Positions 858 through 9,221 of a stretch of DNA of 64,000 nucleotides are shown here, piece by piece; the stretch's first letter is position 1, and the number at the start of each line of letters is the position of its first letter. The DNA lies in contig AP018180.1 of assembly GCA_002368155.1 (NCBI GenBank), positions 3,350,719 to 3,414,718 on the forward strand, in the 5' to 3' direction. Source of the DNA: Nostoc carneum NIES-2107 (GTDB lineage Bacteria; Cyanobacteriota; Cyanobacteriia; Cyanobacteriales; Nostocaceae). Under the pieces are notes generated by a model. It saw only the letters and a list, made by a program, of their open reading frames with translations. It searched no databases and had not been told where the DNA came from. The position numbers were made by a program, and so were the translations under genes.

Positions 858-2225
858 ATGAGCAACCCAGTTTATCAAACTGTGATTCTAGGTGGTGGCT
901 TCACAGGTCTATTTACTGCTTTACATTTAGCTCACGAACATTATCCTCGCTCAGTCATATTAATTGATAAAAATGAGCGCTTTTGTTTTAAGCCATTACT
1001 GTATGAATATTTCGATGGCGAGATGGATAGTTTTCAAGTAGTACCCCGCTTTTCGGAATTACTTCAAGGTAGTGGTGTAATTTTTGTTCAAGATACCGTC
1101 GATTCCATAGACTTGCAGCAACGAGAAGTAAAATTAGCTTCGGGAAATTCCTACAGCTACAGTAATTTAGTCTTAGCTTTGGGTAGTGTGACTGGCTATC
1201 ATCAGGTTAAAGGTGCAAAAGAAAATGCTTTCCCATTTTGGACACAAGCAGATGCGATCGCACTCGATAAACATTTGCGTGACTGCTTACAAAGAGCCTT
1301 GCAAACTGAAGATGCAGAACAACGCCGACAATTGCTAACGGTAGTCATAGTTGGTGGTGGTGCTTCTGGCGTAGAAATGGCAGCAACTTTAGCAGATTTT
1401 CTCCCGCTTTGGTATAGCGCTTTAGGCGGAAATCCTCAGGAAATCCATGTGGTTTTGCTCAATCATGGTGACAAAATTCTCGACGGCGATATTAACGATC
1501 CGCTACGCCCAAACGCCGAACAAGAATTACGAAAACGCACTGTACCAATCGAAATTCTCAGGGGAGCAGAAGCCACTGCGGTTGACTCCAACTCTATTGA
1601 ATATAAAACTAACGAGCAAGTTAAAACTTTACCAACTTACACCACAATCTGGACAGCCGGAACTTCCAACCATCCCTTAATTCAAGACTTACCAATTCCC
1701 AAAGAAAACCGCGATCGCCATAATCACCCCCTAGTTACGCCTACTATGCAACTGCTCGACTTTCCCGAAGTCTTTGCAGGCGGTGATTGTGTAGCAGTTC
1801 AGGGTAATTCCCTACCACCTACAGCGCAAGTCGCTTATCAACAAGGCGCTACTATTGCCAAAAATTTAAAAGCGATCGCTCTCGGAGAAGAACTGAAACC
1901 TGTGAAAGTTAATATCCGGGGAACTCTCTTAAAGTTGGGGTTAAATGATGCTGCTGCTAACCTTTTCAATGTTTTTGAAGTTGCAGGCGAACCCGCACAC
2001 TTAATTCGTCAAAGCACTTATTTAACACTATTACCAACACCAATTCATGATTTTAAAGCGACTGAAGAATGGGTACATGATGAGATTTTTCACCATCACT
2101 TAGACAATCAAGATGTTGGTAAAAAAGTTGTACAAGCAGTTGAATTAGTTGGTGCTGGAGTTGTAGGTGTTTTAGCTGCCAGAAGATTATTAAAAATGCT
2201 TGGTGATGACGACAAAAATCCGTAG
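858..2225 (+). CDS. NAD(P)/FAD-dependent oxidoreductase, type II NADH dehydrogenase-like
   Basis: 455 residues. The N-terminal FAD-binding Rossmann motif is GGGFTGL (residues about 11-17), and a second dinucleotide-binding motif, GGGASGVE, lies near residue 165. A late FAD-contact motif, FAGGDCVA, is near residue 310. This layout is typical of NDH-2 enzymes, which pass electrons from NAD(P)H to quinone without pumping protons. The C-terminus has a hydrophobic stretch (AVELVGAGVVGVLAARRLL) that could hold the protein at the membrane. The electron acceptor cannot be read from sequence; a phylloquinone-related reductase role as for cyanobacterial Ndb proteins is possible. The stop codon abuts a perfect 27-bp palindrome. 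Confidence 0.85.
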   Translation: MSNPVYQTVILGGGFTGLFTALHLAHEHYPRSVILIDKNERFCFKPLLYEYFDGEMDSFQVVPRFSELLQGSGVIFVQDTVDSIDLQQREVKLASGNSYSYSNLVLALGSVTGYHQVKGAKENAFPFWTQADAIALDKHLRDCLQRALQTEDAEQRRQLLTVVIVGGGASGVEMAATLADFLPLWYSALGGNPQEIHVVLLNHGDKILDGDINDPLRPNAEQELRKRTVPIEILRGAEATAVDSNSIEYKTNEQVKTLPTYTTIWTAGTSNHPLIQDLPIPKENRDRHNHPLVTPTMQLLDFPEVFAGGDCVAVQGNSLPPTAQVAYQQGATIAKNLKAIALGEELKPVKVNIRGTLLKLGLNDAAANLFNVFEVAGEPAHLIRQSTYLTLLPTPIHDFKATEEWVHDEIFHHHLDNQDVGKKVVQAVELVGAGVVGVLAARRLLKMLGDDDKNP

Positions 2226-5911: not shown

Positions 5912-6514
5912 AAAACAGAAGTAGGCTAGTAATGTAATTGAGTTGCTGCAACAGTTAGCGGTTACGGGCTAAGTAACGAGGCATGGGAGCAGGGAGCGGG
6001 GAGCAGGGGTGAGAATAAAAATATTCTCGGACTATATTTGGATAATTTATTTTCTGGGAGTCTCTAAGAGCGGAATCTTACCCATGCTCCACTTCTCTAC
6101 GAGACACTACGCGTAGCTTACTTCCACAAAGTGGTACGCTTCGCGCAGAGGAGAAGGGCTTGTTCCCCCTGCTCCCAGCCCCCTGCCCCTTTTCCTCTTT
6201 TGATTATTACCTCCATAGCAGAATAATATATTTGCCAGTTTTGGCAGTCGTGGAATTGTCAAATTTTTGAAACTTCAGCAATTCCCATACCCATCACCTG
6301 AAAATATTTATCAGCTTATCTAAATCTTAATAGTTACAAGTCAGTCACAGGAAAACCCATAACCAAGGAATGATTTGTAGAGACGCGATTAATCGCGTCT
6401 CTCCAAGATTCCCCTTATCCCCCTGCTGCCTTAACGAGCAGCTTTTAACCGCACAAAACGAGACCAGGTCTTGACGCAAAGAACTGTGTCTGTTATTGTG
6501 GCTCTTATATTAGG
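5912..6514. other. gap with GC-rich repeats and one perfect palindrome
   Basis: Holds a purine-rich GGGAGCAGGGAGCGG stretch and its pyrimidine counterpart (about 5980-6190), enclosing a fold-back sequence around TACGCGTAGC. At 6379-6402 there is a perfect 24-bp palindrome with arms AGAGACGCGATT, a dispersed family also at 29601, 32024 and 61387. No coding potential seen. Confidence 0.6.
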
Positions 6515-6544
6515 TTTACATCGGTTTACATCAAAGATTATCTA
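6515..6544 (+). promoter_or_regulatory. candidate promoter for the aroF leader region
   Basis: TTTACA at 6515-6520 and TATCTA at 6539-6544 are separated by 18 bases, a fair sigma70-type match. Transcription would start near 6551, leaving only about 7 bases before the first leader ATG. An upstream TTGACG at 6472 has no well-placed -10. This is inference from motif spacing only. Confidence 0.35.
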
Positions 6545-6557
6545 GTTAAGTACTGTA

Positions 6558-6617
6558 ATGATTTCTAGCAGCAAATCCTATTTTTATTTTTGGCAAAAGG
6601 CGGTTCACCGGCGGTGA
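6558..6617 (+). CDS. aromatic-rich leader peptide 1 of the DAHP synthase gene
   Basis: A 19-codon ORF, MISSSKSYFYFWQKAVHRR, with five aromatic codons in a row (Tyr-Phe-Tyr-Phe-Trp, 6579-6593) and a TGA at 6615. The last codons overlap the 5' arm (6600-6609) of an RNA hairpin that excludes a T-run terminator. This is the classic layout of an attenuation leader: a ribosome starved for Tyr/Phe stops before the arm, and a ribosome reaching the stop covers it. No strong Shine-Dalgarno is visible, so translation may be nearly leaderless. It is called from layout; no database comparison was possible. Confidence 0.7.
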   Translation: MISSSKSYFYFWQKAVHRR

Positions 6618-6679
6618 ATAGTTTCCTAATGGAAACCGCCAGGTGAACCGCAGAGCATCCTCTGCGGTTTTTGTTTTTT
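6600..6679 (+). promoter_or_regulatory. transcription attenuator 1 (antiterminator/terminator pair)
   Basis: Antiterminator: GCGGTTCACC (6600-6609) pairs perfectly with GGTGAACCGC (6642-6651), enclosing a second hairpin (GTTTCC 6621-6626 with GGAAAC 6631-6636, extended by GGCG/CGCC). Terminator: CCGCAGAG (6648-6655), loop CATC, CTCTGCGG (6660-6667), then TTTTTGTTTTTT (6668-6679). The two stems share CCGC at 6648-6651 and are mutually exclusive. There is no gene on this strand upstream for the terminator to serve, except leader 1. Confidence 0.75.
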
Positions 6680-6697
6680 CAGGAGTATTTCGTCGTC

Positions 6698-6760
6698 ATG
6701 ATCTATTGCGGTAGCTGGTTTTATAGCTTTTACTTTTGGCCCAGAGCAAGTTCCGGGTAA
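6698..6760 (+). CDS. aromatic-rich leader peptide 2 of the DAHP synthase gene
   Basis: A 20-codon ORF, MIYCGSWFYSFYFWPRASSG, with eight aromatic residues, seven of them in WFYSFYFW (6716-6739). AGGAG at 6681-6685 lies 12 bases before the ATG. The last codons and stop overlap AGTTCCGGGT (6749-6758), the 5' arm of the antiterminator. It repeats the logic of leader 1, including the FYFW block placed 7-9 bases before the antiterminator arm. The likely role is to sense charged tRNA-Phe/Tyr/Trp. No strong alternative reading. Confidence 0.78.
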   Translation: MIYCGSWFYSFYFWPRASSG

Positions 6761-6823
6761 ATAGCGTCATGTCGATTCATCACAACGCACCCGGAACTCA
6801 CAAGATGAGATTCCGGGTTTTTT
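6749..6823 (+). promoter_or_regulatory. transcription attenuator 2 (antiterminator/terminator pair)
   Basis: AGTTCCGGGT (6749-6758) is perfectly complementary to ACCCGGAACT (6789-6798), forming the antiterminator. The alternative terminator pairs ACCCGGAACTCA (6789-6800) with TGAG (6806-6809) and TTCCGGGT (6811-6818), with a CAAGA loop and one bulged A, followed by six T (6818-6823). Both structures use 6789-6798. The ribosome site AAGGAG of the DAHP synthase gene follows at 6853. Confidence 0.82.
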
Positions 6824-6867
6824 GTTATCCATCAACCTCATAATCCAAACACAAGGAGAATTTCACC

Positions 6868-7740
6868 GTGATTAATGCTAAACTCGCCGCCCAATCCCAT
6901 CCTAGCCATCAGACAATTGTCAAACTCTCAGAAACAGTCAGTTTCGGTGGTGAAGAATTAGTGATTATTGGTGGCCCCTGCACAGTAGAAAGCTTAGAAC
7001 AAATGGAAACAGTTGCCCAAAAGTTAGCAGCTGCACCTGTACAGGCTTTGCGTGGTGGTGTCTACAAACCCCGCACATCTCCCTACGCTTTCCAAGGTAT
7101 GGCAGAAGCAGGATTAGAAGTTTTGGCAGAAGTGCGATCGCGTTACAATATCCCAGTCGTCACAGAAGTAATGTCAATTGCTCAAATTGAAGTAGTCGCA
7201 GCTCATGCTGATATGCTGCAAGTTGGTAGCCGCAATATGCAAAACTTCGACTTACTCAAAGCTTTGGGACAAGCTGGGAAGCCAATATTACTTAAGCGCG
7301 GACTAGCGGCGACAATTGAAGAATTCGTGATGGCTGCTGAATATATTCTGAGTCACGGTAATCCTGATGTGGTGCTGTGCGAGCGAGGTATCCGCAGCTT
7401 CGATAATTACACCCGCAATGTACTGGATTTAGGCGCAGTAGCAGCTCTCAAGCAAATTACTCACCTACCCGTGATTGTAGATCCATCCCATGCCGTAGGT
7501 AAACGTGAATTAGTAGCACCTATGGCTAAAGCTGCTATAGCTTGTGGTGCAGATGGCTTAATTATCGAATGTCACCCAGAACCAGAAAAATCTGTATCTG
7601 ATGCACGTCAAGCTTTGTCTTTAGAAGACATGGTGAATTTGGTTACAAGTTTAAAGCCTTTAGCCGCAGCAGTTGGACGCAATATTTCCGATTTAGGGGT
7701 GGGTGTAAAATCTGCCCCTATTTTTTGCGCGGCGGCGTAA
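6868..7740 (+). CDS. aroF: 3-deoxy-7-phosphoheptulonate (DAHP) synthase, type I beta
   Basis: 290 residues from a GTG start, with AAGGAG 9 bases upstream. It condenses phosphoenolpyruvate and erythrose 4-phosphate, the first step of the shikimate pathway. Visible family motifs are [68 protein letters not shown] and ECHPEPEKS; the Cys, Lys, His and Glu metal and substrate ligands are all present. There is no fused ACT or chorismate-mutase domain and no long N-terminal regulatory domain, so feedback control by the enzyme itself may be weak. Control is probably at the RNA level through the two upstream leader peptides and attenuators. Heptamer repeats follow the gene. Confidence 0.95.
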
Positions 7741-7826: not shown

Positions 7827-9221
7827 TTAAACAGGAATTTCAATGACAAACCTAGCACCTTGCCCTAGAGAAGATACACAATTTAATTTCCCACAGTGCT
7901 GCTCGACTATAATTTGATAGCTGATGGAGAGTCCTAAGCCAGTACCGGAACCAACGGGTTTAGTAGTGAAAAAAGGATTAAATATTTGGGATAATGTGGC
8001 TTCATCCATACCCACACCATTATCTATAATTGAAATTCTGACTGCTTTATTATCTGCGATCGCTTCTGTTTTGACTCGAATATTTGGAGATGAAATGGTG
8101 GGGAAGGCAGATTTCAAAGCATCAATAGCATTGCTGAAAATATTCATGAATACTTGATTAATTTGGCTAGCATAGCAGTTGACTTGGGGTAATTTACCAT
8201 ATTCCTTAATGACGGTAATTTCCGGTAGATGATTTTCTGCTTGTAGCCGATGTTGTAAAATGAGCAAAGTGCTTTCAATACCTTCATGTAAGTCTACTGA
8301 TTTCTTTCCCGCTTCATCAAATCGTGAGAAATTCCGTAAACTCAGCACAATATCACGGATGCGATCGCTACCACTTTGCATAGAACTGAGCATTTTAGAA
8401 GCATCTTCTTGCAGAAATTCCAAATCTGCTGCCTGAATTTTTTCTTGCAGTAATGCAGATGGTTGAGGACATTCTGATTGATATGCTGCTAGCAATTCTA
8501 AAAGAGTATTGAAATACTCTTGAGTATGAGTAATGTTGCTATGAATAAACCCAATGGGATTATTGATTTCGTGAGCAATCCCTGCAACTAGATGTCCCAA
8601 ACCTGACATCTTTTCTGCCTGAATCAGTTGCGCTTGGGTTTGCTGCAACTTTTTTAAAGTTGCTTGTAAATAAATATTTTGCTGTTTTAATGCCTTTTCA
8701 GCTAACTGACGCTCAATTTCTGCTGCTGATCGAGCAGCAAAAATTTTTAAAATAGCTTCCTGTTCTTGATAGTTATGTTCTAATGGCTGAGTATGCAAAC
8801 CAGCAATATGTCCTAAAGGCTTACCTTGAGGATCAAGAATCGGAATTCCCAGATAACTCTCAGCATTCAAGGTTATTAAATCTTTATCTTCTGGAAACTG
8901 TTGTTGAAGTAACTGAGGATAAATTTGCAGTCCTTGCTCATACAAAACACCACAAGGAGTCCCTGCTAAATCATATTCAAAATTTTCACCAAATTCTTTT
9001 CCTGCCCAAAATGCTAAAACTTTAGCTCGTGGCTGACTATCATTGACAAACTCGGCAATTAATGCATATTGAATGTGTAGTACCTCTGCTAAATAATGGG
9101 CGCAAGCTTGAAAGAATGCTTCTCCAATTTGGGAGGCAATCCCTTCCACAATCAGTTTCAGATCGATAAATTCTGGGTTCAGTTGTTGAGTAGAAGTTTC
9201 TGAGGATGATTGAGTCAGCAT
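7827..9221 (-). CDS. GAF-domain sensor histidine kinase
   Basis: 464 residues, no membrane segment, so cytosolic. A GAF domain covers about 20-170, followed by a coiled linker with repeated Gln (about 175-205). The H box is GIAHEINNPIGF (His near residue 215), the subtype often seen in cyanobacteria. The catalytic ATPase domain shows the N box (QVFMNIFSNAIDAL), G1 (IIDNGVGMDE), F (IFNPFFTTKP) and G2 (GSGTGLGLSISY) motifs. No receiver domain is attached. Its partner is not evident: the neighbours are the DAHP synthase gene (convergent) and the GHL10 gene. Confidence 0.9.
   Translation of the reverse strand: MLTQSSSETSTQQLNPEFIDLKLIVEGIASQIGEAFFQACAHYLAEVLHIQYALIAEFVNDSQPRAKVLAFWAGKEFGENFEYDLAGTPCGVLYEQGLQIYPQLLQQQFPEDKDLITLNAESYLGIPILDPQGKPLGHIAGLHTQPLEHNYQEQEAILKIFAARSAAEIERQLAEKALKQQNIYLQATLKKLQQTQAQLIQAEKMSGLGHLVAGIAHEINNPIGFIHSNITHTQEYFNTLLELLAAYQSECPQPSALLQEKIQAADLEFLQEDASKMLSSMQSGSDRIRDIVLSLRNFSRFDEAGKKSVDLHEGIESTLLILQHRLQAENHLPEITVIKEYGKLPQVNCYASQINQVFMNIFSNAIDALKSAFPTISSPNIRVKTEAIADNKAVRISIIDNGVGMDEATLSQIFNPFFTTKPVGSGTGLGLSISYQIIVEQHCGKLNCVSSLGQGARFVIEIPV

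Follow-up and report, generated by a model that had tools for sequence, protein, structure and literature searches.

Attenuators such as those of trp and pheA contain a short leader ORF with codons for the product of the pathway that they control. We examined a 64-kb stretch of the Nostoc carneum NIES-2107 genome (the whole stretch is called the window below), in which aroF is preceded by a leader of this kind. With trp, as described in the passages cited (PMC3641672), and with pheA, this leader shares a product-codon leader ORF and a mutually exclusive antiterminator and intrinsic terminator. Unlike those leaders, it has two modules in series, mixes all three aromatic amino acids in each module, and is cyanobacterial. 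It also differs in that the 5' strand of the antiterminator lies inside the leader ORF and in that the start region of module 2 pairs with sequence after the stop codon.

Tandem attenuators have been described before. According to the passages cited, the mgtCBR leader of Salmonella carries the tandem attenuators mgtM and mgtP, which sense ATP and proline and whose stems are unlike intrinsic terminators (PMC3641672). The aroF leader shares with it the presence of two short serial ORFs in one leader, each an attenuator. However, mgtCBR responds to two signals, whereas both aroF leaders carry Phe, Tyr, and Trp by codon content and both end in intrinsic terminators. In Acholeplasma, a predicted ORF, uORFC-13-1, contains one or more Phe codons and adjoins a terminator upstream of aroF; likened to the present leader by its description, it differs in having one module, in coming from 24 sequences of another phylum, and in being a prediction only (PMC8632094). 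The rimP leader of several Gammaproteobacteria has two serial terminators, of which the first may be countered by an antiterminator, but this leader belongs to another gene and to other bacteria, and the passage that describes it does not mention aromatic leader peptides (PMC2965389). By the account in that 2010 survey, leader-peptide attenuation was known only in Proteobacteria and Actinobacteria before the survey added Firmicutes (PMC2965389), and a passage of a 2016 paper states that reliable data were lacking for attenuation in this phylum, the cyanobacteria (PMC4833913). Papers on cyanobacterial engineering treat feedback inhibition of DAHP synthase, and the passages concerned are silent on attenuation of aroF (PMC10875765, PMC7997468). 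We found no description of tandem aroF attenuators in cyanobacteria in the open-access literature searched. Leader-peptide attenuation here appears both doubled and conserved across many families of Cyanobacteriia. The gated step is catalyzed by an enzyme at the entry to the shikimate pathway and is a deregulation target for metabolic engineers. To the original prediction for this locus, which was made from the window alone, our analysis adds the start-to-stop helix of module 2, the apparent dispensability of either module, and a gated isozyme without the domain of its paralogue.

Two aromatic leader modules upstream of aroF

The aroF gene of the window (6868..7740, + strand, as are all features of the leader) has a GTG start and encodes a type I DAHP synthase of 290 amino acids. 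The original prediction placed two aromatic leaders before this GTG, each with an antiterminator and a T-run terminator; we re-read the coordinates, and folding supports the arrangement. Leader peptide 1 (MISSSKSYFYFWQKAVHRR, 19 codons) extends from the ATG at 6558 to the TGA at 6617, with its aromatic codons (YFYFW) at 6579-6593. Folds and covariation place antiterminator 1 at 6600..6651, where 6600-6609 would pair with 6642-6651 and an inner extension would join 6610-6615 to 6635-6640; the inner pairs in the window are one base out of the alignment register. Intrinsic terminator 1 (6646..6679) is predicted from a stem of 6646-6655 with 6660-6669 and a T-run at 6670-6679. Directly 3' of it stands a Shine-Dalgarno-like AGGAG (6681..6685), which would serve leader 2 despite its long spacing to the ATG; the Shine-Dalgarno sequences of the leaders generally appear weak or distant from the start codons. 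Leader peptide 2 (MIYCGSWFYSFYFWPRASSG, 20 codons) extends from the ATG at 6698 to the TAA at 6760, with its aromatic run (WFYSFYFW) at 6716-6739. Similar leaders are found in the orthologues for both peptides. Sequence, folds, and covariation place antiterminator 2 (6749..6798) in a pairing of 6749-6758 with 6789-6798, and predicted intrinsic terminator 2 (6789..6823) has its 5' arm at 6789-6800, its 3' arm at 6806-6818, and a T-run to 6823.

Both leader ORFs end within the 5' strand of the antiterminator, and the other strand of the antiterminator overlaps the 5' arm of the terminator. Because antiterminator and terminator both use the bases of this arm, they are mutually exclusive in each module. 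Both modules end in a stem and T-run before aroF, as expected of intrinsic terminators. Folding of 91-base stretches around the modules was better than that of shuffles (z of -4.0 for module 1 and -3.2 for module 2). By a coarse rule (at least five aromatics in eight residues), the two strands of the window contain 10 short aromatic ORFs, two of which are leaders 1 and 2.

A probable promoter lies upstream of leader 1 at 6471..6499 (TTGACG, 17 bases, TATTGT), and its box recurs in the orthologues. We counted 92 occurrences of TTGAC 60-99 bases before module 1 in orthologues and 1-10 in any other 20-base bin. A promoter score of at least 9 of 12 was reached upstream of leader 1 in 33/102 orthologues. 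Between terminator 1 and leader 2, this score was reached in 1/103, and between terminator 2 and aroF it was reached in 1/90 (the other 13 of 103 loci being too short to score); in both intervals the mean best scores were below those of shuffled sequence. Thus, the promoter between the leaders and aroF that the original prediction had named as the observation that would count against it was sought and showed no excess, and the sole recurrent promoter-like signal precedes leader 1. Because this signal stands before module 1 and the leader region contains no excess, it follows that a single transcript would pass through both gates, the start of transcription being predicted. Upstream of the promoter, at 6380-6401, we noted the palindrome gagacgcgattaatcgcgtctc, which has a near copy beside the paralogue in locus L002 (about 1284-1303) and may be a dispersed repeat.

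Conservation of the modules in Cyanobacteriia

We compared two sets of loci. The named loci are the best 80 of 347 relatives from a species-level genome collection and are mostly Nostocales. A profile search found both modules at the window's own locus and at 75/80 named loci; in four of the remaining five, the contig stops short of the leaders, and in the fifth a run of bases is masked. The class survey covered 290 genomes, 220 of which had a DAHP synthase at E <= 1e-60. The 107 survey rows with E of about 1e-118 or better were taken as orthologues and 13 more distant matches as a comparison, and two partial orthologues at contig edges (G003 and G102) were left out of the upstream set. Profile searches found both modules upstream of 103 of the 107 orthologues, module 1 alone upstream of two, module 2 alone upstream of two, and no module upstream of any of the 13 distant homologues. 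That the pair recurs before 103/107 orthologues and 0/13 distant homologues demonstrates that it is more than a chance occurrence. In a coarse scan, one distant homologue (L193) had a single aromatic ORF and a terminator, matched by neither profile.

We then have the results of covariance models 1 and 2, which were built from 57 sequences. Model 1 matched 99/99 orthologues plus 6/8 in a second set at E < 1e-7, and model 2 matched 98/99 plus 7/8, counts in which the training rows match by construction. Neither model gave a convincing match on the own-genome paralogue L002 or on the 13 distant matches (best E of 0.12). The genome carrying the window is 9.36 Mb in size, and the aroF of the window shares 99% identity with its counterpart in Calothrix membranacea FACHB-236. 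Across this genome, each model had one strong match, the locus itself, and no further copy (next best E of 2.6 and 0.9). A coarse ORF scan of the same genome revealed no comparable leaders before pheA and two Anth_synt_I_N (trpE/pabB-like) genes. Among 280 class genomes, 105 had a match to model 1, one each. Three of these matches (L213, L214, and L215) lie outside the fetched loci, as compared by genome handle. In L214 and L215, aroF is at a contig edge and model 2 also matches; the L214 contig ends before the gene and is matched by the start of model 2 only, while L215 includes the 5' part of aroF. The third, L213 (1-3201, genome G108), contains a decayed aroF: leader 1 is recognizable, but inside terminator 1 the sequence passes into a fragment of a broken aroF, and covariance model 2 did not find module 2. 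Model 2 gave 29 matches on 292 phylum genomes, a search with stricter filters and another genome draw, so that this number is no prevalence figure for the class. The sole match outside the class (G363) was rejected as module 2; it is a terminator adjoining a tRNA-Ser gene.

The aromatic runs and covarying stems that the original prediction expected upstream of orthologues are kept well beyond Nostocales, and in these alignments the arrangement persists in distant relatives despite changed sequence. Since 4/107 orthologues were without one module by profile search, the tandem arrangement is not obligatory. The natural aroF leaders of L144 and L189 contain module 1 but not module 2. L187 retains module 2 and has a terminator-like hairpin without a leader near a promoter-like box, and L186 keeps module 2 with a much diverged module 1 recognized by eye. 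A further locus, L222 (about 1020-1310, minus strand), has module 2 only, behind a TTGACA box. This distribution suggests that the ancestral leader had both modules and that lineages can lose either gate. These natural gate-1-only and gate-2-only loci make the value of serial gates directly testable.

We counted codons in the 103 orthologues with both leaders located (including L135, whose leader 1 frame was mis-called). All three of Phe, Tyr, and Trp are present in leader 1 in 95/103 and in leader 2 in 100/103. The mean numbers of aromatics are F 3.1, Y 1.7, and W 1.2 in leader 1 and F 3.6, Y 1.8, and W 1.6 in leader 2. Phe, Tyr, and Trp interchange at the same core positions in both leaders; at position -12 of leader 1, for example, there are 42 F and 41 Y, and at position -10 there are 48 Y and 40 F. 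If the runs were caused by U-richness, a U-rich stretch would give many Leu, Ser, and Cys codons. Instead, the T-starting codons of the leader 1 core comprise 453 aromatic codons and 5 for Leu or Ser (57 codons have another first base), and those of the leader 2 core comprise 633 aromatic codons and 6 for Leu, Ser, or Cys (82 with another first base), which amounts to 1086 versus 11 in the pooled runs. We rejected U-richness as the cause; the counts indicate that selection acts on the aromatic codons at the amino-acid level. The interchange of F, Y, and W and the bias among T-starting codons are as predicted if the leaders sense the charging of the aromatic tRNAs as one pool. The original prediction expected sharper or multi-input control; the similar F/Y/W proportions of the two leaders favor a single pooled signal, sensed at both gates, rather than a separate input for each. 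In leader 2 of L096, the aromatic run looks internally duplicated (WFYSVYFWFGFYFW).

These counts bear on two other explanations. The region could be a metabolite riboswitch or T-box with incidental ORFs, as mutually exclusive structures before an amino acid biosynthesis gene might suggest. However, the strong constraint falls on in-frame aromatic codons, and we consider this explanation extremely unlikely; Rfam families had 0 matches over threshold in the window, with two irrelevant ones at E up to 10. The leader peptides could also act in trans, the RNA stems being ordinary terminators; passages on peTrpL of Sinorhizobium do report a trans role for a leader peptide. However, F, Y, and W take one another's places in the aromatic run, the N-terminal parts vary, and it is the C-terminal end of the peptide (VH.., ..SG) that the antiterminator strand encodes. 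A trans function is, in our estimation, very unlikely.

Covariation of the stems was measured in 57-row alignments against 500 shuffles, which do not correct for the relatedness of the rows, with a control in which the partner was slid by 1 to 3 columns. The proportion of cells paired was 90.8% for antiterminator 1, 98.2% for terminator 1, 89.4% for antiterminator 2, and 94.2% for terminator 2, and it dropped to 12.6-61.4% in the slid controls. Both sides had changed in 8/12, 4/9, 3/9, and 5/10 pairs, respectively. All four stems exceeded 500/500 shuffles in the number of paired cells, the number of double-changed cells, and the covariation score. In the same order, the number of double-changed pairs was matched by 0, 2, 206, and 20 of 500 shuffles and the number of pair types by 0, 66, 462, and 26. 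Thus, antiterminator 2 is unsupported by these last two measures, since 206 and 462 of 500 shuffles were as high, and the pair types of terminator 1 show no clear excess (66/500). Judged by the alignments as a whole, all four alternative stems show covariation. In genus-level group g99 of family f25 (e.g., L163, L172, and L175), inspection by eye places this strand of antiterminator 2 elsewhere in the leader 2 ORF, with a complementary stretch before the terminator.

Ribosome position and the modeled behavior of the two gates

The conserved runs, the covarying stems, and a promoter signal that is found only upstream support the central claim of the original prediction. Very probably, transcription from one promoter passes two successive ribosome-mediated attenuators before it reaches aroF, and both sense pooled charged aromatic tRNAs. 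RNA polymerase would transcribe leader 1 first. With ample charged Phe, Tyr, and Trp tRNAs, the ribosome would reach the stop codon and mask the 5' strand of the antiterminator, and terminator 1 would form. With one aromatic tRNA in short supply, the ribosome would stall in the run, the free strand would pair with the 5' arm of the terminator, and the polymerase would pass. The same charging test would be repeated at leader 2.

We modeled these states by folding RNA that ends just before the 3' arm of the terminator, with an assumed ribosome footprint, at 102 loci for module 1 and 101 for module 2 (L135 and loci without a located motif were excluded). Mean modeled antiterminator pairing with the ribosome at the first and middle aromatic codons was 0.69 and 0.66 in module 1 and 0.68 and 0.62 in module 2, and with the ribosome at the stop codon it was 0.03 and 0.01, respectively. 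A ribosome at the last aromatic codon blocked antiterminator 1 (mean of 0.18, at least 0.5 in 1/102) and weakened antiterminator 2 (mean of 0.44, at least 0.5 in 50/101). Equilibrium folding of whole modules with a mid-run stall gave terminator 0.52 versus antiterminator 0.41 in module 1 and 0.59 versus 0.22 in module 2; the value for the window's own module 2 (terminator 0.01) looks wrong, the bulged terminator having probably been misplaced. Such folding does not predict read-through on stalling. In these models, a clear switch requires the antiterminator to form while the terminator is still incomplete.

The start-codon region of module 2 also pairs with bases after the stop codon. In the window, this helix would join about 6691-6708 to 6759-6777 (6691..6777), as placed by cognate pairing and folding. 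We compared cognate with swapped duplexes in 54 of 56 loci, pairing the start region, at -88 to -44 relative to the stop codon, with a stretch of 26 bases that begins at that codon; L135 (mis-called frame) and L161 (short upstream) were left out. The module 2 duplexes averaged -13.3 kcal/mol when cognate and -10.3 kcal/mol when swapped (z of -7.9, 0/5000 permutations), and the controls gave z of 0.1 for a segment further upstream and -1.3 for the core codons. The same test found no such helix in module 1 (z of -0.9). On 34 similarity-thinned loci, module 2 gave z of -7.7, the upstream control -1.0, and module 1 -0.9. The helix sequences vary widely, and most of the 57 rows have the start codon covered or touched by the helix. 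In L111, L151, L156, and L169 the strongest duplex is found upstream of this codon, and in L107, L135, and L161 it is weak. By this comparison, a covarying helix is a feature of module 2 that is absent from module 1. Weaker signals came from the module 1 core codons with the post-stop bases (z of -3.8), from within the module 1 post-stop stretch (z of -3.3), and from the inner extension of antiterminator 2 (z of -2.3). The cognate pairing test found no cross-pairing between modules 1 and 2.

It is possible that the two gates differ in kind. Gate 1 would then respond to charging only and would be open by default without translation, and gate 2 would be closed by default and would also check ribosome initiation. 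We hold this refinement tentatively, at somewhat less than an even chance, and with the same reserve its consequence, that aroF would need both aromatic shortage and working translation. The presence of the helix in module 2 and not in module 1, on the full and the thinned loci alike, is in its favor. In addition, the modeled antiterminator pairing without a ribosome was 0.66 in module 1 versus 0.47 in module 2, and the window's free module 2 folds into the start-to-post-stop helix and terminator 2. The helix could form when leader 2 carries no ribosome, and it lowers modeled antiterminator formation. This suggests that, without translation of its leader, gate 2 is probably biased towards the closed state. 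However, the modeled helix is only moderately populated (mean of 0.19, at least 0.3 in 27/101 loci), and without a ribosome the module 2 antiterminator still reached 0.5 in 56/101 loci, so that the effect of the helix is partial when set against an upstream helix of the 1:2 type, which in leader-peptide attenuators favors termination when there is no translation. Moreover, the weaker module 1 pairings described above might close gate 1 too.

Another refinement is that gate 2 simply multiplies gate 1, equal gates cutting leakage and steepening the response to one pooled aromatic signal. The like aromatic make-up of leaders 1 and 2 agrees with this, and we give it close to an even chance. However, the modules are built differently, with the helix in module 2 only, and the one-gate loci show that a single gate can suffice.

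The AroF enzyme

A ferredoxin-like domain carries feedback inhibition in related DAHP synthases. The window's AroF lacks this domain (PF18152), as do three further orthologues, whereas the ungated paralogue of the same genome carries it. The distance from the end of module 2 to the start codon is at most 177 bases in the 103 orthologues, and the PF18152 domain would need roughly 200. By a hand count, 48/107 orthologue genomes had no second DAHP synthase match at E <= 1e-60, a count that includes some drafts and used a type I query only. Since the gated isozyme is without a domain that its paralogue has, control of AroF probably rests largely on the double gate, and we infer that the two attenuators together substitute for feedback control.

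Combining this with the differing modules, we propose, at just under an even chance, an ancient two-stage switch of Cyanobacteriia, in which non-identical serial attenuators, both sensing pooled aromatic tRNA charge and gate 2 being closed by default through a start-to-stop lock, replace feedback inhibition of a DAHP synthase that lacks the regulatory domain. If so, leader-peptide attenuation would be a native cyanobacterial mechanism, and lineages with two gates and with one would offer a natural comparison.

At the other end of the gene, a terminator-like hairpin with a T-run lies within the 3' end of aroF (7694-7726). It faces a convergent gene (7827-9221, - strand) that we named histidine-kinase-like by eye.
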